Below, piece by piece: positions 37,592-53,991 of a DNA stretch of 64,000 nt (positions are counted from its first letter, which is position 1; every line of letters starts with the position of its first letter). The stretch lies in assembly GCA_016282015.1 (NCBI GenBank), contig JAEEJS010000001.1, forward strand, positions 62,001-126,000. The letters run 5' to 3'. The translations under genes were made by a program, and so were the position numbers. Under the pieces are notes generated by a model. It ran no database searches. It had not been told where the DNA came from and saw only the letters and a program-made list of their open reading frames with translations. The DNA comes from Bacteroidales bacterium (GTDB lineage Bacteria; Bacteroidota; Bacteroidia; Bacteroidales; F082).

Positions 37592-38899
37592 TTAATTGTC
37601 TTTAATGGCTTGAAGAATGTTTTTCTTGGCTGACAGCGTCATTGTGACGCCTCGGGCTACCATGAAACAGAGGAAGGCTATCCAAAGGCCATGGTTGCCC
37701 CAAACAGGTACCAGCAGATATCTCAAAGGCAGAAACACCAACAATGACGAGATAATCATAGTGTTTCGGATGGCTTTGGAAGCTGTGGCGCCTATATAGA
37801 TGCCGTCCCAAAGGAAAGCCGCGAAGGTTATCACCGGTATGAGCACCATATATATATAATAAGGTTGTACCTGTTCGATGATTACCGGGTTGTCGGATAT
37901 CATTTTGACGAAAGGAGTGGGGAAGATGGCATAAACTATGGCGAAAGGCAGGCTAATATACATTCCCCATTTGAAAAGCTGCCTGACTACCAGGTTTAGG
38001 CTGGCGGAATCCCTGGAGCCTATGAATTTTCCTACCAGAGCTTCTCCGGCATAGGCAAAGCCGTCGGTGAAATATGAGAATATGTAGAAGAATTGCATGA
38101 GTATCATGTTGACACTCAGAATGTCGTCTCCAAAGCTGGCCGATTGAATGTTGAAAAAGGCTATGGTGAAAACCAGCAGTATGCTGCGTATCATCAAGTC
38201 GGTGTTGACTTTGAAGAAGCGTTTTAGCTTGTTTATGTCTATAAGTGTCTTGACATCTATCTTAATCAGATAATGCTTGTATTTTGTGAACAGGAAAATC
38301 AGGGCTGTGGCCAGTCCGCAATATTGGGCTATGACTGTGCCTAGTGCCACGCCTTCCACATCCCTGTGCATCACCAATACGAAGAACACGCTGAAAACAA
38401 TGTTCAACACATTTATAACTATCGCTATGGTCATAGGTATCTTGGTGTTCTGCATGCCGATGAACCATCCGTTGAGACAGTACAGCAGCATGTTGGCCGG
38501 TGCCGCCCAAATCCTTACATAAAAATAGGTGATGGCCAAATTGAGGAGTTCGTCGCTGCCCTCCAGAATTATCAAATTGAGTTTTGCTATGGGATGTTGC
38601 AAAACTAATATTAATAAGGAGGCAAAAATCGCTATGGTAAACGATCTGTATAGCGAGTAACTTATTTCCGATTGGTCTTTGCTGCCGTAGGACTGGGCGG
38701 TGAAACCGGTGGTGCCGGCTCTGAGAAAACTGAAAAACGAATACAGTACACTGAAGATGGTGCCGCCAAGCGCTATAGCCCCAATGTAAACCGGTGAGCT
38801 CAGGTGTCCCATCAGCGTCATGTCGACCAGTCCCAGCAACGGAACTGTTATGTTGCTGATTATGTTGGGGATGGCCAATTTTAGAATCTCGCGGTTCAT
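37592..38899 (-). CDS. MATE family efflux transporter (DinF-like)
   Basis: A 435-residue inner-membrane antiporter with 12 predicted helices that exports drugs or metabolites using Na+ or H+. MNREILKLAIPNIISNITVPLLGLVDMTLMGHL, GTTGFTAQSYGSKDQSE, FYVRIWAAPANMLLYCLNGWFIGMQNTKIPM and YFTDGFAYAGEALVGKFIGSRD are typical of the DinF-like branch. I use the ATG at 38899; the longer frame to 39010 would run through the promoter at 38916-38923. Its last codon is followed 1 base later by the start of the DUF2779 nuclease gene, so the two are an operon. Confidence 0.92.
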   Translation of the reverse strand: MNREILKLAIPNIISNITVPLLGLVDMTLMGHLSSPVYIGAIALGGTIFSVLYSFFSFLRAGTTGFTAQSYGSKDQSEISYSLYRSFTIAIFASLLILVLQHPIAKLNLIILEGSDELLNLAITYFYVRIWAAPANMLLYCLNGWFIGMQNTKIPMTIAIVINVLNIVFSVFFVLVMHRDVEGVALGTVIAQYCGLATALIFLFTKYKHYLIKIDVKTLIDINKLKRFFKVNTDLMIRSILLVFTIAFFNIQSASFGDDILSVNMILMQFFYIFSYFTDGFAYAGEALVGKFIGSRDSASLNLVVRQLFKWGMYISLPFAIVYAIFPTPFVKMISDNPVIIEQVQPYYIYMVLIPVITFAAFLWDGIYIGATASKAIRNTMIISSLLVFLPLRYLLVPVWGNHGLWIAFLCFMVARGVTMTLSAKKNILQAIKDN

Positions 38900-38915
38900 T
38901 TGTAAAAAATTTACG

Positions 38916-38923
38916 CAAAAATA
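38916..38923 (-). promoter_or_regulatory. -7 element of the MATE-DUF2779 operon
   Basis: TATTTTTG on the reverse strand, 16 bases before the ATG at 38899. Confidence 0.5.
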
Positions 38924-38933
38924 AAAAATAATG

Positions 38934-38963
38934 TTGTATGTATCAAATAATTTCTTACCTTTG
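38934..38963 (+). promoter_or_regulatory. Housekeeping-type promoter far upstream of the coiled-coil lipoprotein gene
   Basis: TTG (38934-38936), 19 bases, then TACCTTTG (38956-38963). Transcripts from here would carry a leader of about 200 bases containing the TGTGGA/TCCACA array and the sigma-54-like promoter. Confidence 0.6.
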
Positions 38964-38982
38964 CGTCGGAAAATCAAGGAGT

Positions 38983-39019
38983 TGTGGAGAATTGTGGAGC
39001 GATTCCACACATTTCCACA
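38983..39019 (+). repeat. TGTGGA/TCCACA array phased at 10 bp, two direct and two inverted copies
   Basis: TGTGGA at 38983 and 38993, then TCCACA at 39004 and 39014. Each pair is 10 bp apart, on the same face of the helix, and the whole is a dyad about a 5-base centre. It could be an operator, possibly enhancer-like sites for an NtrC-type activator about 90-120 bases upstream of the sigma-54-like promoter, or an RNA hairpin with a 4x4 internal loop. AATTTTCCAAAAATTTT at 39085-39101 is AT-rich; nothing else was recognised in the 269-base gap. Confidence 0.65.
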
Positions 39020-39106
39020 CCTGTTGCTGAGTAAACGGGAAAAGAGAAATTTTTTATCTGATTGATTGTCAATAGTTTAGAGAAAATTTTCCAAAAATTT
39101 TATGTT

Positions 39107-39121
39107 TGGCACGGTTTTGGC
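39107..39121 (+). promoter_or_regulatory. Candidate sigma-54 (RpoN) promoter
   Basis: TGGCACGGTTTTGGC has the -24 GG (39108-39109) and -12 GC (39120-39121) exactly 10 bases apart. It differs from TGGCACGNNNNTTGC only at one T. Predicted start near 39133, 36 bases before the ATG at 39169. An NtrC-family activator gene lies one gene downstream. Confidence 0.65.
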
Positions 39122-39168
39122 GCCAGATTTAACCGGTTAGTGCAGACTAATTTAAAATTATAACAAAA

Positions 39169-40017
39169 ATGAAGAAAACATTAGCAATTTTGTCAGTCGC
39201 ATTAGTAGCTCTCGTGATGAGCTCATGCGTTGAGAGTTCAAAGAAGTATCAGGCTTTGTTAGCAGAGAAGGAAGCTCTCGTTGTTGAAAACCAGACAATG
39301 GAGAACGAATTCAATGCCACATTAGGTATCCTCAATGAGGTTGAAAACAACCTTCAGGCTATCCGCGACGCAGAAGGTATCCTTCTGGTTCAGCAGGAGG
39401 GAAGCCAGAGAGAACAGATGGTTTCAGAACTCATTCAGTTAAAAGAAGTCATGGCTGCTAACCACGCGCGTTTGGACTCACTTGACAACGCCTTGGCACA
39501 GTCAAAGAAGAGCAACGCAAACCTTCGCGCTCAGGTGAAGAAGCTCCAGGCTCAGCTTGAAGAGAAAGAAGAGATGATTGCAAATCTGCAGGGTCAGATT
39601 GCTGAGAAGGACGGTCAGATTGCCAACCTGAACAACCAGGTGGACAACCTCAACACCAACCTCAACAAAGCTAACAGCCAGATTGAAAATCTTACTAATG
39701 CCAACTTGATGCAGGTCAACGAACTGAACGCTGTTTACTACATCGGCGCCAGCAAGAAAGAATTGAAGGCTAAAGGTATCATGTCAAACCTCAAGAACGT
39801 GCTCAAGCAGGAAGTTCCTACAGAGGAATTCATCAAAGCTGACAAGCGCGAGCTCAGAACCATCAATTTCGAGGCTAAGAAGGCTGTGGTTATCTCAAGT
39901 CATCCAGTTGATTCTTACAACATCGTGAAAGTTGACAAGAAGAACGTTCAAATTGAAATCACAAATCCAGAGGCATTCTGGAGTGTTACAAAATATTTGG
40001 TTGTAATAACCAAGTAA
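39169..40017 (+). CDS. Coiled-coil lipoprotein
   Basis: A 282-residue lipoprotein: MKKTLAILSVALVALVMSSC with Cys20. Residues about 25-180 are a long coiled coil with heptad runs (NANLRAQVKKLQAQLEEKEEMIANLQGQ, then GQIANLNNQVDNLNTNLNKANSQIENL). A C-terminal domain of about 100 residues (VNELNAVYYIGASKKELKAKGIMSNLKNVLKQEV and FEAKKAVVISSHPVDSYNIVKVDKKNVQIEIT) is conserved among similar Bacteroidales lipoproteins. The function is unknown; some relatives are named adhesins in databases, which I cannot verify here. It is preceded by a sigma-54-like promoter and ends with a strong terminator, so it is regulated separately from the following operon. Confidence 0.8.
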   Translation: MKKTLAILSVALVALVMSSCVESSKKYQALLAEKEALVVENQTMENEFNATLGILNEVENNLQAIRDAEGILLVQQEGSQREQMVSELIQLKEVMAANHARLDSLDNALAQSKKSNANLRAQVKKLQAQLEEKEEMIANLQGQIAEKDGQIANLNNQVDNLNTNLNKANSQIENLTNANLMQVNELNAVYYIGASKKELKAKGIMSNLKNVLKQEVPTEEFIKADKRELRTINFEAKKAVVISSHPVDSYNIVKVDKKNVQIEITNPEAFWSVTKYLVVITK

Positions 40018-40044
40018 TTTTTCTGCTCGTTTTCAATATTTACG

Positions 40045-40081
40045 GGAATCCGACGCCGCCTGGTGTCGGATTCCTATTTTT
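40045..40081 (+). terminator. Terminator of the coiled-coil lipoprotein gene
   Basis: GGAATCCGAC (40045-40054) and GTCGGATTCC (40065-40074) form a perfect 10-bp stem followed by TATTTTT. Confidence 0.88.
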
Positions 40082-40116
40082 ATGCACTTTTTTGTAGCAT
40101 GTAATGATAAAATATA

Positions 40117-40124
40117 TATTTTTG
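40117..40124 (+). promoter_or_regulatory. -7 element of the response regulator-OPT-pepT operon
   Basis: TATTTTTG followed by CA, 23 bases before the ATG at 40148. TTTG at 40091-40094 is 22 bases upstream. This is a housekeeping-type promoter, not sigma-54. Confidence 0.55.
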
Positions 40125-40147
40125 CAAAACGAGCAGAATATTTTAAT

Positions 40148-41482
40148 ATGTCAAAAAAGATTTTGATTGTCGACGATGACGTCGCTTTCGGCGTGATGCT
40201 TCGTACATGGTTTCAGAAGCATGGTTGGGAAGTGTCTTTGGCCTCTAGTCTGGATGGAGCGTTCCGTGAGTGCTTGTCGGCTCAATTTGATTTGATACTG
40301 AGTGATTTGCGTCTGCCTGACGGCGACGGCATCATGCTTCTTACCGAATTGCGTGAGAAGAAAATAATGACACCTTTCATGATCATGACCGGTTATGCCG
40401 ATGTGCAAACCGCCGTTAACGCCATTAAACTTGGAGCTTTCGATTATCTCAAGAAGCCCATAACCCCCGATGTTCTTGAACAGAAGATTGAGGCGGCCTT
40501 GCAGCAGGCCAATGAGGTGCGCAAGGAACTCAAACCCAAGTCACAACCAAAGGCGTCGGCAGTGGTGAAGGGGCAGAGTCAGGTTATACAGCGTGTGTAC
40601 AAACACGTGTCGCTTGTGGCTCCGACCAAGATGTCGGTGCTAATACTGGGAGAAAGCGGTACCGGTAAGGAGTACATAGCACGTATGATTCACGAGCAAA
40701 GCGGCCGTAAGAACAATCCTTTCATAGCGGTTGACTGTGGCAGCCTCTCAATGGAGCTTGCGCCTTCGGAACTGTTTGGTCACATTAAAGGCTCATTCAC
40801 CTCGGCAATAGCCGACAAGAAAGGTGTGTTTGAGGTGGCAAAGGGAGGTACGGTGTTTCTGGATGAGGTGGGAAACCTTCCTTACGAGGTGCAAAAACAG
40901 CTGTTGAGAGCTTTGCAGGAGCAGAAAGTAAGGCCTGTGGGCTCAGCTCAAGACATTACAGTGGATGTGAGAATTATCGCCGCCACCAACGAAGATCTGG
41001 TGGGAGCTATAGAAAAAGGCAATTTCCGTCAGGATTTGTATCATAGGATTAACGAGTTTTCCATAGAGGTTCCGCCTCTGCGTGAGAGGTTGGAGGATCT
41101 GGAGGAGTTTGCCTACCATTTCCTGGCGCAGGCCAACGAGGAACTTGGCAAGGATGTGAAACACATTTCGGATGAAGCCTTGGAGATGATGAAACAGCAT
41201 CAATGGGACGGCAACTTGAGAGAGTTGAGGAATGTGATTCGTCGGGCCACTTTGTTTGCTGAAAATGATGAGATTACAGCCGACAACCTGCCAGTCTTGA
41301 CAAGTCGTGCGCCCAAGGCCACGGCAGCGGAGGACATGGCTTTGCAACCTGGAGATGAGAAAGAACAGATTATTGCGGCTTTGAAAAAGGCCAGGGGTAA
41401 CAAAACTGTGGCGGCCAAACTTTTGCAAGTGGACAGAAAAACTCTGTACAACAAAATGCATTTATACGAAATCGAATTGTAA
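40148..41482 (+). CDS. NtrC-family sigma-54-dependent response regulator
   Basis: A 444-residue activator of RpoN promoters. The receiver domain (1-120) has the DDD acidic pocket and phosphorylation site Asp53 in SDLRLPDGDG. The AAA+ domain (about 140-375) has Walker A GESGTGKE, Walker B GGTVFLDEVG and RIIAATN. The sigma-54 contact loop reads GSFTSA (215-220) rather than GAFTGA. The C-terminal Fis-type HTH is KKARGNKTVAAKLLQVDRKTLYNKMHLYEI. No cognate histidine kinase is adjacent. It is first in an operon with OPT and pepT and one gene downstream of a sigma-54-like promoter, so it may regulate that promoter. The ATG at 40148 is preferred over the upstream frame to 40082. Confidence 0.93.
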   Translation: MSKKILIVDDDVAFGVMLRTWFQKHGWEVSLASSLDGAFRECLSAQFDLILSDLRLPDGDGIMLLTELREKKIMTPFMIMTGYADVQTAVNAIKLGAFDYLKKPITPDVLEQKIEAALQQANEVRKELKPKSQPKASAVVKGQSQVIQRVYKHVSLVAPTKMSVLILGESGTGKEYIARMIHEQSGRKNNPFIAVDCGSLSMELAPSELFGHIKGSFTSAIADKKGVFEVAKGGTVFLDEVGNLPYEVQKQLLRALQEQKVRPVGSAQDITVDVRIIAATNEDLVGAIEKGNFRQDLYHRINEFSIEVPPLRERLEDLEEFAYHFLAQANEELGKDVKHISDEALEMMKQHQWDGNLRELRNVIRRATLFAENDEITADNLPVLTSRAPKATAAEDMALQPGDEKEQIIAALKKARGNKTVAAKLLQVDRKTLYNKMHLYEIEL

Positions 41483-41499
41483 ATCAATAAAATAATACT

Positions 41500-43506
41500 A
41501 TGGAAGAAAATGAGAAATTCAGTCTGCCTGAGAATGCGCAGCGTGAGTTGAAACCAGGCGAGGTTTATGAACCTATATTGTCGCCCAAGAAAAAATACAA
41601 AGAGGTGACGGTTTGGTCGGTGGTGGTCGGCCTGTTGATGACAGTGCTGTTCTCGGCTGCCGCGGCATATCTCGGATTGAAGGTCGGACAAGTGTTTGAG
41701 GCTGCAATTCCTATTGCCATCATAGCTATCGGATTGTCGAATGTGGCAAAGAAAAACGACGCCTTGTCGCAGAACGTCATCATACAGTCAATTGGCGGAT
41801 GTTCGGGCGGCGTGGTGGCCGGTGCCATCTTCACCTTGCCGGCGCTGTACATACTTCAAGGCAAAGGCTATGAAATCGAGATAAATTACATGCAGGTGTT
41901 CTTGAGTTCGCTGCTGGGCGGCGTGCTGGGCATTTTGTTCCTTATTCCTTTCAGAAAGTATTTCGTCAAGGAACAGCACGGCAAGTTTCCGTTCCCGGAG
42001 GCTACAGCTACCACTCAGGTGCTGGTGAGCGGACAGAAAATGGGTAAGGACTCGCTGTTGCTTGTAATCAGCGGATTGATCGGCGGTATCTACGATTTCA
42101 TCATTTCGACATTCGGTTGGTGGTCGGAGACTATCAGCACCAAAGTGATACCTTGGGGTGCTGCTCTGGCTGACAAGGCCAAGCTGATGTTCAAGGTCAA
42201 TGTGGGCGCTGCAGTGCTCGGTCTGGGCTACATCATCGGACTGAAATATGCCTTCATCATCTGCTGTGGCTCTATGTTGGTGTGGTTTATCATTATCCCG
42301 GGAATGAATCTGATATGGGGTAACGACATTATCGATTTGATGAACACCGGCCTGAGCATGAGAATAGGTGACATGGCTCCGGAAATGATATTCAAAGATT
42401 ATGCGCGTCATATCGGTATCGGCGGTATAGCCATGGCCGGTGTGGTAAGCATCATCAAGTCGTGGGGAGTGATAAAATCGTCGGTAGGCCTTGCGGCTAA
42501 CGAGTTTAAAGGCAATAAGACAACAGGAGTGGAGGTGGAGCGCACACAGCATGACCTCTCGATGAAGTTCATCGTCATAGGAATCGTGGCTATTCTTCTT
42601 CTGACCTTCGTGTTCTTCCGTTTCGGTGTTGTGGGTAACTTCGGTCACGCAGCCATAGGCATACTTGTGGTGGCGGTGATAGCGTTCCTGTTCACAACAG
42701 TGGCAGCCAACGCAATAGCCATAGTGGGATCCAACCCTGTGAGTGGCATGACTTTGATGACCTTGATTCTGGCTTCACTGGTGATGGTGGCTGCCGGTTT
42801 GAGCGGAGCTGCCGGCATGACAGCGGCTCTGATAATTGGAGGCGTGGTGTGTACGGCATTGGCTGTGGCTGGCGCTTTCATTACCGATTTGAAGGTGGGA
42901 TATTGGATTGGCACAACTCCTAAGAATCAGGAAATCTGGAAGTTTGTGGGCGTGGCAGTGGCTTCGGCAACTGTGGCCGGCGTCATAATGATATTGAACA
43001 AGGCTTACGGCTTTGTGGGTGAAGGCGCTCTGGTGGCACCTCAGGCCAACGCCATGTCGGCTGTGATAGAGCCTATGATGTCGGGCGGCAACGCTCCTTG
43101 GCTGTTATACGGCATAGGCGCCGCTATAGCCTTGATACTTACATTCTTAAAGATTCCGGCACTGCCTTTTGCTCTGGGTATGTTTATTCCGATAGACCTC
43201 AATATACCGCTGTTGATTGGCGGAGCAGTCTCATGGTTTGTTTCTACACGCAGCAAAGACGAAAAACTCAACAAGGCACGCTACGACCGCGGCACTCTCA
43301 TAGCTTCCGGATTCATAGCAGGCGGAGCTTTGATGGGTGTGGTTAGTGCCATACTGAAGTTCGGTAATGTTGACCTTGTGGCCAGAACAGCCGACGGCTC
43401 GCTGTTTGCGTCTACACCATGGGCCTCACTGATTGCCTTGGTGATGTATGTGGCAATTATAGTTTACATGATTTGGGATTCTAAAAGAGCTAAAGTTGAA
43501 GAATAA
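41500..43506 (+). CDS. OPT family oligopeptide transporter
   Basis: A 668-residue inner-membrane protein with about 15 predicted helices. KKYKEVTVWSVVVGLLMTVLFSAAAAYLGLKVGQVFEAAIPIAIIAIG, then FPFPEATATTQVLVSGQK and ALPFALGMFIPIDLNIPLLIGGAVSWFV are hallmarks of the bacterial OPT branch, which takes up small peptides or metal chelates with protons. It lies 17 bases after the response regulator and 11 bases before peptidase T. Given that neighbour, peptide uptake is the best guess. Confidence 0.92.
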   Translation: MEENEKFSLPENAQRELKPGEVYEPILSPKKKYKEVTVWSVVVGLLMTVLFSAAAAYLGLKVGQVFEAAIPIAIIAIGLSNVAKKNDALSQNVIIQSIGGCSGGVVAGAIFTLPALYILQGKGYEIEINYMQVFLSSLLGGVLGILFLIPFRKYFVKEQHGKFPFPEATATTQVLVSGQKMGKDSLLLVISGLIGGIYDFIISTFGWWSETISTKVIPWGAALADKAKLMFKVNVGAAVLGLGYIIGLKYAFIICCGSMLVWFIIIPGMNLIWGNDIIDLMNTGLSMRIGDMAPEMIFKDYARHIGIGGIAMAGVVSIIKSWGVIKSSVGLAANEFKGNKTTGVEVERTQHDLSMKFIVIGIVAILLLTFVFFRFGVVGNFGHAAIGILVVAVIAFLFTTVAANAIAIVGSNPVSGMTLMTLILASLVMVAAGLSGAAGMTAALIIGGVVCTALAVAGAFITDLKVGYWIGTTPKNQEIWKFVGVAVASATVAGVIMILNKAYGFVGEGALVAPQANAMSAVIEPMMSGGNAPWLLYGIGAAIALILTFLKIPALPFALGMFIPIDLNIPLLIGGAVSWFVSTRSKDEKLNKARYDRGTLIASGFIAGGALMGVVSAILKFGNVDLVARTADGSLFASTPWASLIALVMYVAIIVYMIWDSKRAKVEE

Positions 43507-43517
43507 ATAATTGAAAT

Positions 43518-44735
43518 ATGGAAAAGTTACTGGATAAATTCTTGAGATATGTCGCCGTCGAGACGACATCCGACGAAAACTCTGACACACAGCCGAGCTC
43601 TATGAAGGAGTTCGATCTGCTCAGAATGTTGCAGAAAGAGCTGCAGGACATGGGTATCAAAGCCGATTTGGATGAATACGGCTATGTGATGGCCACCATA
43701 CCGGCTAATACGGATAAGGATATACCGGCCATTGGGTTTATAGCTCATGTCGATACCTCACCTGACGCATCGGGTAAGGATATCAAGCCGCAGATCATTG
43801 AGAATTATGGCGGAGGCGACATTTTGCTCAACGCTGAAAAAGACTTGTATCTGAAGGTTTCAGAATTTCCGGAGATGCAGCAGTATGTGGGCAAAACCCT
43901 GATTACCACCGACGGTACAACTTTGCTGGGCGCTGACGACAAGGGCGGTGTGGCTGCTATTATGTATGCCGCTCAGTATCTGATTGAACATCCAGAGGTG
44001 AAGCATGGAGAAATCAAAATAGGCTTCACTCCGGACGAGGAGATAGGACGCGGTGTGGCCAAGTTCGATGTGAAGAAGTTCGGAGCCAAGTATGCATATA
44101 CTATAGACGGCGGCGAGATAGGCGAATTGGAGTACGAGAACTTCAACGCCGCCGGCGCGAAGATCCGCATTCAAGGAAGTAACATCCATCCAGGTTACGC
44201 AAAGGATAAGATGGTCAATTCGATGCTCATAGCCATGGAGCTCAACGCCATGCTTCCTGTGGAGCAGAGACCGGCTTACACTCAGGGCTACGAGGGATTC
44301 TTCCATCTGACCGACATAACCGGAACGGTAGAGGAGACCACTATGGGGTATATTATCCGCGATCACGACAGAGCGAAATTTGAAGCCAAGAAAGAACTCA
44401 TCACCGAGGTGGTGGCTTTCCTGAACAAGAAATACGGTAACGTAGTGACGCTGGAGCTGAAGCATCAGTATTACAATATGCGCCAGGAGGTGGAGCCTCA
44501 TTATTTCATTGTGGAGAAAGCTATAAAAGCTATAGAAATGGCAGGCGTCAAGCCGAAAGTGCAGCCTATACGCGGAGGCACAGACGGAGCCAACTTAAGT
44601 TTCATGGGCTTGCCGTGCCCGAACATTTTCGCAGGAGGTCACAATTTCCACGGAAAGTGGGAGTATGTGCCGCTTGAGAGCATGGAAAAGGCTTCAGAAG
44701 TGATTCTGAATATCATCAAACTGTTTACGGAATAA
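43518..44735 (+). CDS. pepT: Peptidase T (tripeptide aminopeptidase, M20 family)
   Basis: A cytoplasmic dinuclear zinc enzyme that removes the N-terminal residue from tripeptides. The 405-residue length is normal. Metal ligands and catalytic residues are in place: His77 and Asp79 in AHVDTSPD, Asp140 in LGADDKGG, Glu174/Glu175 in TPDEEIG, Asp198 in TIDGGEIG and a His in FAGGHNFHGKWEYVP. The insert carrying GSNIHPGYAKDKMVNS provides the dimerisation-domain histidine. It is the last gene after the response regulator and OPT, so imported tripeptides would be hydrolysed at once. The stop abuts the stop of convergent trmH. Confidence 0.96.
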   Translation: MEKLLDKFLRYVAVETTSDENSDTQPSSMKEFDLLRMLQKELQDMGIKADLDEYGYVMATIPANTDKDIPAIGFIAHVDTSPDASGKDIKPQIIENYGGGDILLNAEKDLYLKVSEFPEMQQYVGKTLITTDGTTLLGADDKGGVAAIMYAAQYLIEHPEVKHGEIKIGFTPDEEIGRGVAKFDVKKFGAKYAYTIDGGEIGELEYENFNAAGAKIRIQGSNIHPGYAKDKMVNSMLIAMELNAMLPVEQRPAYTQGYEGFFHLTDITGTVEETTMGYIIRDHDRAKFEAKKELITEVVAFLNKKYGNVVTLELKHQYYNMRQEVEPHYFIVEKAIKAIEMAGVKPKVQPIRGGTDGANLSFMGLPCPNIFAGGHNFHGKWEYVPLESMEKASEVILNIIKLFTE

Positions 44736-49723: not shown

Positions 49724-51544
49724 ATGACAAGTATTCGTAATGTTGCGATAATCGCTCACGTTGACCACGGAAAGACCACTTTGGTGGATAGGATTCTTTA
49801 TCAGTCAAAGCTTTTCAGAGATGATAAGGATAATGGAGATTTGATTCTGGATAACAACGATCTGGAGCGTGAACGAGGTATCACCATCTTGTCGAAGAAC
49901 GTCTCTGTGCGTTATAAAGACGTTAAAATCAACATTATTGATACTCCCGGCCACAGTGACTTCGGTGGAGAGGTGGAGCGTGTACTTAACATGGCCGACG
50001 GTGTTTTGCTGCTAGTTGATGCCTTCGAAGGTCCTATGCCGCAGACACGTTTCGTGCTTGAGAAAGCTATCCAGCTCGGACTGAAGCCTATAGTTGTGGT
50101 AAATAAAGTCGACAAGCCGAACTGCACTCCAGAGGAGACTCAGGAAGCTGTGTTCGACCTGATGTACAACCTTGGCGCCAACGACGACCAGCTCGACTTC
50201 CCGACAGTATTCGGCTCATCGAAACAAGGTTGGATGTCAGACCATTGGACACATGTCACCAACGACGTTTCATATCTGCTGGACGTTATCATCAACACCA
50301 TTCCGGAAGCTAAATACGAAGAGGGTACTCCTCAGATGCTTATCACTTCACTCGACTACAGCTCATACGTGGGCCGTATAGCCGTGGGCCGTCTGAAACG
50401 CGGAATCCTTCAGGCTGGAATGAATGTCTCTTTGGTGAAACGTGACGGTTCTATAGAAAAGAATCAAATCAAGGAATTATACACATTCGAAGGTCTTGGC
50501 AAAGAGAGAACAAAGAAGCCTGTGATGGCTGGCGATATAGTAGCAGTGATGGGACTTGAGAACTTCGAAATCGGTGACACAGTCGCTGACTTTGAGAACC
50601 CAGAGGCCTTGCCTCCGATTCACGTTGACGAGCCTACCATGAGCATGCTGTTCACCATCAACAACTCTCCATTCTTCGGAAAAGAAGGCAAGTTCGTCAC
50701 ATCACGCCATTTGCGCGAGCGTCTTTACAGAGAGACAGAGAAGAACCTCGCTTTGCGTGTGGAAGACACCGATTCACCTGATTCGTTGATGGTTTACGGA
50801 CGTGGTATACTTCACCTCAGTATTTTGGTGGAGACCATGCGCCGTGAGGGTTATGAGTTCCAGATCGGTCAGCCGAAAGTTCTGTTGAAGGAAATCGACG
50901 GCAAGAAGTGCGAGCCTATAGAGGTGATGAACGTGCAGGTGCCTGAAAACTTCGCCGGTCGTGTCATTGAGTTGGCTTCACAGCACAAGGGTGAAATGAC
51001 CAACATGATGCCTAAGGGCGACCGTATGAATCTGGACTTCGACATTCCGGCACGTGGTCTGATAGGACTGCGTAGCGCCATGCTGACAGCTACCGAAGGT
51101 GAAGCTGTGATGTCGCACCGTTTCAAAGATTACGAGCCTTGGAAAGGTGATATGGAAACACACGAAGTGGGTGCCCTTATCGCTATGGAGACAGGAACTG
51201 CAGTGCCTTACGCTCTGTGGAAGCTGCAAGACCGCGGCAAGTTCTTTGTATCACCTAACGAAGATGTGTACATGGGCGAGGTTATAGGTGAGAATACCCG
51301 TTCAAACGACATAGTTCTGAACATCAACAAGACCAAGCATCTGACCAACGTCCGCGCTTCAGGTTCGGACGATAAGATAGTGCTCATCCCGCCAGTAAAG
51401 ATGTCGCTTGAGGAATACATGGAGTATATCCGCGACGACGAATATCTGGAAGTGACTCCTAAGAGCCTGCGTCTGCGTAAGATCATACTCGACGAAATCG
51501 AGCGTAAGCGTAGCGGCCGTAGAAGCGAGGAAGTGAGCGACTAA
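49724..51544 (+). CDS. typA: Translational GTPase TypA/BipA
   Basis: A ribosome-bound GTPase of the EF-G/LepA group involved in 50S assembly and stress responses. The 606-residue length matches the family. G1 is [10 protein letters not shown]2 ERGITI, G3 [17 protein letters not shown]4 NKVDK and G5 GSSKQGW. The C-terminal domains include [28 protein letters not shown] and [29 protein letters not shown], and EVSD is the terminal tail. Its stop codon interlocks with that of the convergent histidine kinase gene (TAA and TAG share three bases). Confidence 0.97.
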
Positions 51545-53991
51545 ACGGAAATATCATATTTATCGGCCAGCATGGCCAAGAGGGCATCGGATTGTTTCAT
51601 GAATTCGATGCCTTTTTCTTCCCAGTCGGGAAGGGAGGAGGCGTCTTGTCCGCGACGGCTGTCCATGTCGATGAGGTACTGTGCCGATTCCTGTTCCAAC
51701 TGAATGAACATAGGGCGCATCTTGTGGCACACAGCCTGGGCTTTGGCGAAGTCATGCTCGGTGACGGCGTCGTTAAGAGTGACCAGATTGTCGGAGGTGG
51801 TGTCGGCGAAAGTCTGAAGTATGCCGCGTATGGCTGTGGCGTCGTTGTTGAACATGGCGCACAGTTGTGGGAAGTCGTCAGTGAAGTCGCAACTTTGACT
51901 TGCCTCTTCGGCTATGCCGGTGTTGAGAAGCTGGGCCAGGTTTTTGATGCTGAACGGTTTCTTGATATAACCGTCGAAGCCTTCGTCCATGGCGAACTTC
52001 TCTGAATACTGGTCGCGGGCAGTCATCAGAATGACAGCCTTCTGAGGGTCGACTTTTTTAATCATCTTCAGCACATCGTTGCCAGAGAATGTGCCCATCT
52101 CGCGGTCGGTGATGACCAAGTCGTAGCGGTCCAGCTCTTCAATGTATCTGTTGAATTCGATGTAGGAACGGCAGATGTCGGAACTGTGGCCGATTTTGGT
52201 AAGCATGGCGCTCACTACCGACAGCAGGCTGTTGTCGTCGTCCACAAGTAGTATGTGGAGTTTTTTATTGGCAGCCACAATACGGTTGTCGGTGACGGCT
52301 GTTTTCTCAACAACTTTGTTTTCGACTGGCTTTACAGGTATCTTTATCTCAAAGTGACTGCCTTTTTCGAGCTCAGACATCACATTTATGCTGCCGCCAA
52401 GCAGCTCGAGCAAGCCTTTCACCACATAAAGTCCGAATCCGTTACCTTCAGCCAGTCCGGGGTTGTTGTCAGCCTTGCTGAACGGCTTGAACATCTCTTC
52501 AATCTTGTCGTTTGGAATGCCTATGCCTTGGTCTATCACATTGAAAATAAGCTTGTTGTTGGCGAAATAAACACCAAAGTGCACTTCACCCTCAATGGTA
52601 TATTTCAAGGCGTTGGAGATGATATTGCTAACAACCTGCTTTATCTTCAAAGGATCGGAGTTGACATAAACGTCGTCGGCTATATGCTTGTGATAGAAGA
52701 AGCTGAGCTGTTTGTTTTCGGCTATAGGACGGAACATGGCGGCCAGTTGGTCGCAGAGTTCACTCGGGTTGAAATCGGAGCGGCTGACATGCTGTTTGCC
52801 TTGATCCAGACTTGAGAACTCAAGCAGATTGGACAATAGAGACAGTATGTGTTCCGATGAGACTTTCATCGAATTGAGACGCTGCATGTCGTCGGCTTTG
52901 GGCTTTTCAAGTTGCATTAGCTCTATATGGCCGACTATGGACGAAAGCGGAGCCTTGATGTCGTGCGAAACAGACAGCAACAGCTTGTGGCGGCTTTCCA
53001 TAATTTCTTCGGTTCGTCTCTTGGCTTCCTCTGTGGCTTTTCGTGCTTTTGATACTCTTCTTATATCGTTGAATATCAACATTATACATAAAACTATAAA
53101 GCCAAGCGCCGTAGTGCCTCCATAGATTGCGTAGTTCAAATTGCGCTGAATAACCGATTCGCTCTTCTGAATCTCATCCATCACAGAGGTGAGCGACTGC
53201 TGGTGCAAAATGATCAGCAGGCCTGAAATCTGCTCAGAGATGATTTGATCTGATTTGATGAAAGTCTGATATTGATACTCAAGGGTTTGAATCCTTTCGA
53301 TATATTCTTTTCGGCCTTTTTCAGTGTAAAGTTTGATATCTTTCATGATATCTTCCTTGTTGTCGGCCTCTTCGCTTATGGTGTCGAAGGTGGTAGTGGT
53401 GACAAGAATGATGCTGTCACGGGCGTTTTCCGAAGAGAATATCCTTTGGAAGAAGCTTTGCTTTTCGGCTCTGTGTACTATGGTGTCCTGTCTGGTCACG
53501 GCCACCACCTTGGTTTTCTTCTCGGGTTTGTAGTCTTCCAAAAGCTTGTAGATGCTCTCGTAAGGGTTGAAGACATCGTAATGGTGGGATATCTGCTTGA
53601 TAATGATCTCTTTACGTCTGAGCAGCTGCAATATATCGTTCAGAATGGCTTTGTTTCTGGTATCGCTGGAATAGTAGATGATGGAATCTTTGATAGCCGA
53701 GATCTCCTGCAAATTGAGCTGGAAATTGTTGAGGTAGTCCTGATCGCCAGTGAAAGAATAGAGCTGGGCATCAGACTGGGTTTGATTCATCTTTTGAATC
53801 AAATCGTTGGTCAGGCTGAGCACCTTTTCGTTTTTGTATATGGTGACGCGTTGCTCCAGGATGGATTCCTTGATGTTTCTGACATAATATATCATAGCCG
53901 CGATTATGACTATCGCGATGATAAAAATCAACACGGCCTCTCCACGGACGCGGCTCTCGTAGTGTCGTTTATGTCTTAAACCTTCTGCCAT
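51541..53991 (-). CDS. Hybrid sensor histidine kinase with receiver and Hpt domains
   Basis: An 816-residue membrane protein carrying its own phosphorelay. TM1 (about 17-36) and TM2 (about 287-306) flank a periplasmic sensor region of about 250 helical residues that I do not recognise. The HisKA domain has His343 in SVSHDIKAPLSSIVGH. The HATPase domain follows (NIISNALKYT, FNVIDQGIGIPNDKIEEMF, GNGFGLYVVKGLLELLGGSINV). The receiver has Asp629 in LVITDREMG, and the C-terminal Hpt domain has His756 in AVCHKMRPMF. No response regulator gene is adjacent. A -7 element lies 5 bases from the ATG. Confidence 0.9.
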   Translation of the reverse strand: MAEGLRHKRHYESRVRGEAVLIFIIAIVIIAAMIYYVRNIKESILEQRVTIYKNEKVLSLTNDLIQKMNQTQSDAQLYSFTGDQDYLNNFQLNLQEISAIKDSIIYYSSDTRNKAILNDILQLLRRKEIIIKQISHHYDVFNPYESIYKLLEDYKPEKKTKVVAVTRQDTIVHRAEKQSFFQRIFSSENARDSIILVTTTTFDTISEEADNKEDIMKDIKLYTEKGRKEYIERIQTLEYQYQTFIKSDQIISEQISGLLIILHQQSLTSVMDEIQKSESVIQRNLNYAIYGGTTALGFIVLCIMLIFNDIRRVSKARKATEEAKRRTEEIMESRHKLLLSVSHDIKAPLSSIVGHIELMQLEKPKADDMQRLNSMKVSSEHILSLLSNLLEFSSLDQGKQHVSRSDFNPSELCDQLAAMFRPIAENKQLSFFYHKHIADDVYVNSDPLKIKQVVSNIISNALKYTIEGEVHFGVYFANNKLIFNVIDQGIGIPNDKIEEMFKPFSKADNNPGLAEGNGFGLYVVKGLLELLGGSINVMSELEKGSHFEIKIPVKPVENKVVEKTAVTDNRIVAANKKLHILLVDDDNSLLSVVSAMLTKIGHSSDICRSYIEFNRYIEELDRYDLVITDREMGTFSGNDVLKMIKKVDPQKAVILMTARDQYSEKFAMDEGFDGYIKKPFSIKNLAQLLNTGIAEEASQSCDFTDDFPQLCAMFNNDATAIRGILQTFADTTSDNLVTLNDAVTEHDFAKAQAVCHKMRPMFIQLEQESAQYLIDMDSRRGQDASSLPDWEEKGIEFMKQSDALLAMLADKYDISV

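Follow-up and report, generated by a model that had tools for sequence, protein, structure and literature searches.

The locus

The window, by which we mean the whole 64-kb stretch analysed, belongs to contig C32 of a Bacteroidales assembly of 2.46 Mb (74 contigs, 98.3% complete). What is observed in it is motifs, their conservation, gene order and complementarity. A lipoprotein gene is followed by the gene of an NtrC-type response regulator (the activator), an OPT-family transporter gene and the gene of peptidase T (Table 1). An earlier, sequence-only reading of the same DNA had given this order correctly, with gaps of 17 and 11 bases behind the activator and the transporter; the activator starts at 40148. 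Three further features lie beyond that reading: an array of short boxes, a hybrid kinase gene and a conserved element in the 3'UTR of the lipoprotein message.

Table 1. Features of the locus, with positions in the window
Feature	Position	Strand	Basis
TAnnTTTG (-7) box, Bacteroides-type housekeeping promoter, alternative for lipoprotein	38956..38963	+	TACCTTTG
Proposed activator-binding array TGTGGA-N4-TGTGGA-N5-TCCACA-N4-TCCACA	38983..39019	+	conservation
Predicted sigma-54 -24/-12 promoter element, predicted start near 39133	39107..39121	+	motif, conservation
Cbp1-family lipoprotein, coiled coil and small C-terminal domain	39169..40017	+	NF052320, model
3'UTR 15-mer CTGCTCGTTTTCAAT, proposed seed of a 3'UTR-derived small RNA	40023..40037	+	conservation
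Intrinsic terminator of the lipoprotein message	40044..40085	+	14-pair stem, T-rich tail; two-sided pair changes
TATTTTTG (-7) box of the activator operon	40117..40124	+	sequence
Activator leader stretch, 13 bases complementary to 40021-40033	40126..40138	+	sequence
NtrC-type response regulator (activator), GSFTSA loop	40148..41482	+	domains, loop read-out
OPT transporter, beside activator not conserved	41500..43506	+	family match; gene order in relatives
Peptidase T, beside activator not conserved	43518..44735	+	family match; gene order in relatives
Hybrid histidine kinase (HisKA, HATPase, receiver), probable activator partner	51541..53991	-	homology, neighbourhoods

The lipoprotein belongs to the 'Cbp1 family' (NF052320, 213.5 bits against a cut-off of 90). 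It is modelled as a coiled coil with a small C-terminal domain (mean pLDDT 79.1, pTM 0.43), and comparison of the model with the PDB gave no match at E <= 0.001. Among the loci studied its identity drops to about 34%.

The activator has receiver, sigma-54 activation and Fis-type HTH domains (Response_reg, Sigma54_activat, HTH_8). Its sigma-54 contact loop reads GSFTSA instead of GAFTGA, in the window and in 71 of 80 loci, with the F and the T retained. In NorR, serine at the second glycine of the loop is described as leaving the protein active (PMC2941729, the part available). The named relatives of the activator come from Bacteroidales MAGs, many of them from rumen or gut, one being Candidatus Limimorpha caballi (Bacteroidales incertae sedis at NCBI).

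The proposed promoter and its upstream boxes

The stretch TGGCACGGTTTTGGC at 39107-39121 is one mismatch from TGGCACGNTTTTTGC, a -24/-12 match that the sequence-only reading had pointed out, and it is the sole one-mismatch match in the window. The counts of such matches are at the level of chance. Allowing up to three mismatches to TGGCACGNTTTTTGC gave 8 in the window against 7.83 expected, and TGGCACNNNNNTTGC with at most one mismatch gave 182 in the whole genome against 153 for the reversed pattern. The motif alone thus proves nothing, and motif statistics from the window and the genome, showing no enrichment, were dropped as evidence. What lifts the site above chance is that it is conserved with a fixed layout.

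Homologues of the lipoprotein were sought in 60 genomes, this one included, and found in 44; activator loci were taken from named genomes, 80 being kept of 178. The lipoprotein genes beside an activator provide 73 distinct upstream regions (74 less one duplicate). A -24/-12 site was accepted if it had at least 7 of 11 consensus letters, with GG and the -12 G required, within the last 85 bases, and a tandem box if it was a TCCACA/TGTGGA pair with at most one mismatch. The site is present in 69 of the 73 regions (shuffled mean 4.36), the tandem box in 65 (0.08) and both in 62, counts that overstate the surprise because the boxes were discovered on part of the same data and the shuffles ignore kinship. 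At stricter cut-offs of 8 and 9 letters 49 and 34 regions remain, against 1.22 and 0.26 for shuffles. The C of the -12 GC, present in the window, is kept in 46 of the 69 sites and lost in 23. Most of the 11 regions that lack one element are tandem-lipoprotein loci.

The reversed-pattern control and the Paludibacter loci are better tests than the shuffles. Of 99 genomes of the genus, 58 have the combined pattern TCCACA-N4-TCCACA-N62..92-TGGYA and 41 lack its exact form; the reversed pattern occurs in 2 of the 99. Thirty matches were inspected, and 26 of them lie before the lipoprotein gene and four do not. Both elements recur in three distinct Paludibacter-type upstream regions, where the activator is 59-61% identical. 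In a negative set of 15 homologous upstream regions from other families, the same criteria found one weak -24/-12-like site (7/11, L124) and no box pair.

The layout is also regular. Of the regions, 47 have an exact TCCACA pair. Measured in these, the spacing between the downstream box and the -24 element is 91-95 in 19, 73-76 in 24, 51 in three (Paludibacter type) and 84 in one; the 91-95 and 73-76 classes differ by about two helical turns. The boxes have a period of 10 bases, and the inner pair of the window array forms a 17-base dyad, in the manner of NtrC sites. Without mismatch, TTCCACANNNTTCCACA has one copy in the genome, at the array.

The boxes resemble TTATCCACA, the DnaA box consensus, and could be DnaA boxes or another replication signal. 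The match is only partial, however, the exact tandem form is unique in the genome, and the array stays with the lipoprotein gene through different neighbourhoods. A role in replication is so improbable as to be nearly negligible. Alternatively, the array might bind no protein and instead fold, as RNA, into a leader hairpin of the housekeeping transcript: the close group has inverted boxes, placed immediately behind the promoter of that transcript. In the distant congeners and Paludibacter, by contrast, the pair is tandem, that hairpin is impossible and the upstream promoter is mostly absent, and we regard the hairpin as highly improbable.

Another possibility is that the -24/-12-like stretch and the boxes are operators through which a different regulator acts on the housekeeping promoter at 38956, sigma-54 being uninvolved. 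The window motif overlaps the palindrome TGGCGCCA, and the TAnnTTTG box is kept in all 18 of 18 close relatives, 190-225 bases before the ATG. The 31 distant congeners, however, keep the -24/-12 site mostly without that box: any TAnnTTTG in the 300 upstream bases is present in 4 of 31. Moreover, GG and the -12 G at exact spacing are the least variable positions (both were required by the search), and the adjoining gene encodes a sigma-54 activator. This explanation is unlikely. Of the lipoprotein's two predicted promoters, the sigma-54 element is the more general.

Of the three tests that the sequence-only reading had named for its promoter, two were run, a search for rpoN and the conservation of the motif before orthologues, and neither refuted it. 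The genome has rpoN with all three sigma-54 domains, and the motif is conserved at the frequency given above. The genome also has four strong matches to the sigma-54 activator domain (the activator and three others) and three weak ones. Since a terminator lies behind the lipoprotein gene and a TATTTTTG box stands separately before the activator, the housekeeping-type promoter already ascribed to the regulator operon, the sigma-54 promoter would serve the lipoprotein, as that reading had thought likely. Judged from these sequence features, promoter, activator and lipoprotein probably belong to an NtrC/sigma-54 two-component unit for one lipoprotein.

Neighbours of the activator and its probable kinase

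Neighbourhoods were counted at the 73 of 80 loci where the activator is at least 58% identical, the seven below 58% being left out. In all but one of the 69 loci with room to see (68 of 69), the gene immediately before the activator is that of the lipoprotein; at the exception, L200, the upstream gene is a different one and no lipoprotein. The downstream side is far less constant. On the earlier view, an operon of the regulator with OPT and PepT would connect the lipoprotein with the uptake of peptides or the breakdown of tripeptides. The gaps in the window are indeed tight, and several relatives (e.g., L100, L104, L171) likewise have the two genes behind the activator. Yet OPT is directly downstream in 10 of the 67 loci with room to see, and it is absent there in the Paludibacter loci and in six close relatives (L097, L098, L099, L101, L102, L103), where the activator is followed immediately by a TrmH-like gene and the lipoprotein is kept. 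Since OPT is rarely beside the activator and is missing in those six, the peptide link is not supported, and we consider it very unlikely. Of the regulator hypothesis, then, the sigma-54 promoter and the lipoprotein as its target are supported, and the peptide connection is not. OPT-PepT (41500-44735 in the window; L171-L188) is present in some close relatives and absent from others, between the activator and the TrmH-like gene, in the manner of a small insertion/deletion island.

At 43 of 68 loci a kinase like that of the window is encoded downstream of the activator, at 27 of them no farther than 300 bases away; at the other 25 none is seen downstream. In the window, kinase and activator are 8 kb apart, and the kinase at 51541-53991 is the only match in its own genome, at E <= 1e-20, to the activator-adjacent kinase. 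Six activators of other families were read out: a hybrid kinase is beside L124, L131, L133, L134 and L135, and not beside L132. At L124 activator, kinase and lipoprotein are clustered. Homology and neighbourhood point to the hybrid kinase as the probable partner of the activator.

A conserved element in the 3'UTR

Between the stop codon of the lipoprotein and the terminator, CTGCTCGTTTTCAAT stands without a single change in 61 of 69 intergenic regions: 19/19 in the close group, 11/15 in other near congeners, 31/31 in distant congeners and 0/4 in the Paludibacter type. Among the eight exceptions are four tandem-lipoprotein loci with the exact 15-mer behind the first copy. (Tandem duplicates of the lipoprotein were seen at L189, L191, L192, L193, L194 and L198, with the exact 15-mer behind one copy only.) Of the 99 genomes of the genus, 94 contain the exact sequence and none contains the reversed control; the genome of the window has a single exact copy. 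Thirty copies were inspected; 26 lie behind the lipoprotein gene and four within coding genes, and in G002 and G028 the coding copy alone was found. The coding copies (L276, L280, L286, L289) are in two unrelated genes, which we take to be PHP-type phosphatase-like and SbcC-like, and appear to be a coincidence of the peptide IENEQ. As this peptide accounts for them, they were rejected as targets.

Two alignments, of close and of distant loci, were built from loci with the exact 15-mer, whose identity is therefore 1 by construction. Identity is 0.75 in both over the 38 columns that follow, and 0.92 (close) and 0.46 (distant) in the few columns before it. In the close set 23 pairs are predicted, of which 9 show changes on both sides, nearly all of these in the terminator; in the distant set the figure is 5 of 8. 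Such changes support the predicted terminator and not, by themselves, a small RNA. The terminator stem, which varies, does not include the 15-mer. In the predicted fold of the window RNA the 15-mer is mostly unpaired (mean 0.80), with about 0.45-0.5 at four positions. A search of Rfam over 38880-40200 gave nothing above the gathering cut-off, sar scoring 21.5 of 43 bits and RT-6 17.6 of 46.7 bits. A conserved seed beside a terminator, the mark of small RNAs derived from 3'UTRs, is found here.

Candidate pairing targets

The predicted duplex of the activator leader (40126-40138) with 40021-40033 is reached by 1.4% of 500 shuffled leaders. Of the 19 close-group loci, 13 have the complementary stretch AACGAGCAG without mismatch in the activator leader; the distant ones lack it. 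In other genomes AACGAGCAG follows a -7 box, 5-12 bases before the ATG of several unrelated genes, the sense of these leader copies being always the one that pairs with the 3'UTR. It precedes a gene for a zeta-toxin-family P-loop protein (19 fetched loci in 18 genomes, close kin), an OMP_b-brl_3 barrel protein (L360-L363; Pfam on L361) and a DUF3078 protein (L364 and L367, one genome). All of these loci, and L365 in the genome of the window, were fetched for holding the motif. Fifteen of the zeta-family loci also have GTGGAAAAG tandem boxes and a TGGCAYGA site, where the TGGCA site also forms a hairpin, and this gene is possibly a second target of the same activator. The upstream region of the zeta-family gene (L304-L306, L312, L345-L359) is strongly conserved, with GTGGAAAAG tandem boxes, TATCTTTG, a TGGCAYGAAAWATGC-like hairpin and AAAACGAGCAG before the ATG. 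The matches in leaders other than the activator's are leads, not proof. TTTG-AACGAGCAG-ATG has 277 matches in the 99 genomes against 64 for the reversed pattern, an excess that is no proof either, because AAC GAG CAG are ordinary codons and coding positions repeated among orthologues occur among the matches listed.

A more local explanation has to be taken seriously: the 15-mer may be a DNA site or an element of mRNA stability or termination, and the leader matches chance. AACGAGCAG is made of ordinary codons and many of its genome matches are coding, the activator leader match does not extend to the distant congeners, and in its own genome the leader L365, of a gene that is presumably PdxA-like, forms a duplex no better than 15% of shuffles. 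The leader copies, however, lie just after a -7 box and close before the ATG, in pairing sense and before several unrelated genes, and the 15-mer stands apart from a terminator stem that varies. We put the local explanation slightly short of an even chance. That the lipoprotein message releases a sigma-54-controlled small RNA, with the seed 5'-CUGCUCGUUUUCAAU almost unchanged genus-wide, which pairs with leaders near their 5' ends just before the ATG, we hold to be evenly balanced; the leaders proposed under this same joint reading are those of the activator, the zeta-family ATPase and outer-membrane barrel proteins.

A possible mechanism

We infer binding, phosphotransfer, promoter firing, RNA release and pairing, as follows. 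The hybrid kinase would phosphorylate the activator. Bound to the TGTGGA/TCCACA array, some 90 bases before the -24/-12 element, the activator would drive RpoN-polymerase, and the lipoprotein message would start near 39133. The upstream housekeeping promoter may yield a basal message that the bound activator may block. The message would end at the terminator after 40044, and the 15-mer in its 3'UTR may be the pairing region of a small RNA. In close relatives, the complement of the 15-mer in the activator's own leader could give negative feedback.

Relation to known systems

The nearest known arrangement is glnA-ntrB-ntrC with GlnZ in Enterobacteriaceae, and the present locus would work likewise if the RNA exists. 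As far as the accessible part of the source goes, both have, by prediction in the present case, a sigma-54 target gene upstream of the operon of its own activator, a second, upstream promoter of the sigma-70 type, a terminator and a conserved seed in the 3'UTR (PMC9731577). The two are not homologous, however: the target here is a lipoprotein, the hybrid kinase is encoded apart and the RNA is a candidate only. GlnZ, in the same text, needs Hfq (PMC9731577). If the mechanism is true, Bacteroidales would have an envelope two-component system with a non-coding arm, the small RNA, of an origin separate from that of GlnZ.

Within Bacteroidota there are partial likenesses. Cbp1 (BF0586) of Bacteroides fragilis, of the same NCBIfam family as the lipoprotein, is reported to bind collagen; neither 'promoter' nor 'operon' appears as a term in the portion of the Cbp1 text at hand (PMC3949742). 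In the sigma-54 regulon of Flavobacterium psychrophilum, -24/-12 promoters precede envelope and lipoprotein genes, and there are three proteins with the PF00158 domain, activator-target pairs being without assignment in the available text (PMC9723704). GibS, a small RNA of Bacteroides thetaiotaomicron, has a conserved single-stranded seed that pairs at translation initiation regions, as proposed here, but it is intergenic, shows no sigma-54 control in the text available and is proven by experiment (PMC7366714). In the same species, grpE and groES are stated to be sigma-54-dependent (PMC12316311, in part).

Sigma-54 control in Bacteroidales is poorly charted, and the literature covered, which leaves aside most subscription papers, holds no described set of a Bacteroidales sigma-54 activator with its binding site and target. 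In the present locus every putative member of such a set, from the sensor through the activator and its binding site to the promoter and the target, can be given a name. Should the 3'UTR RNA exist, it would be a small RNA under sigma-54 control, with candidate targets, in a group where the targets of few small RNAs are known.

Farther afield, Parabacteroides distasonis has a 53%-identical activator near genes for an ATP-binding protein and a phosphoethanolamine transferase, neighbours that hint at an envelope signal. Close to that related activator is a near-consensus -24/-12 site, TGGCACGATATTCGC (L263, 5552-5566).
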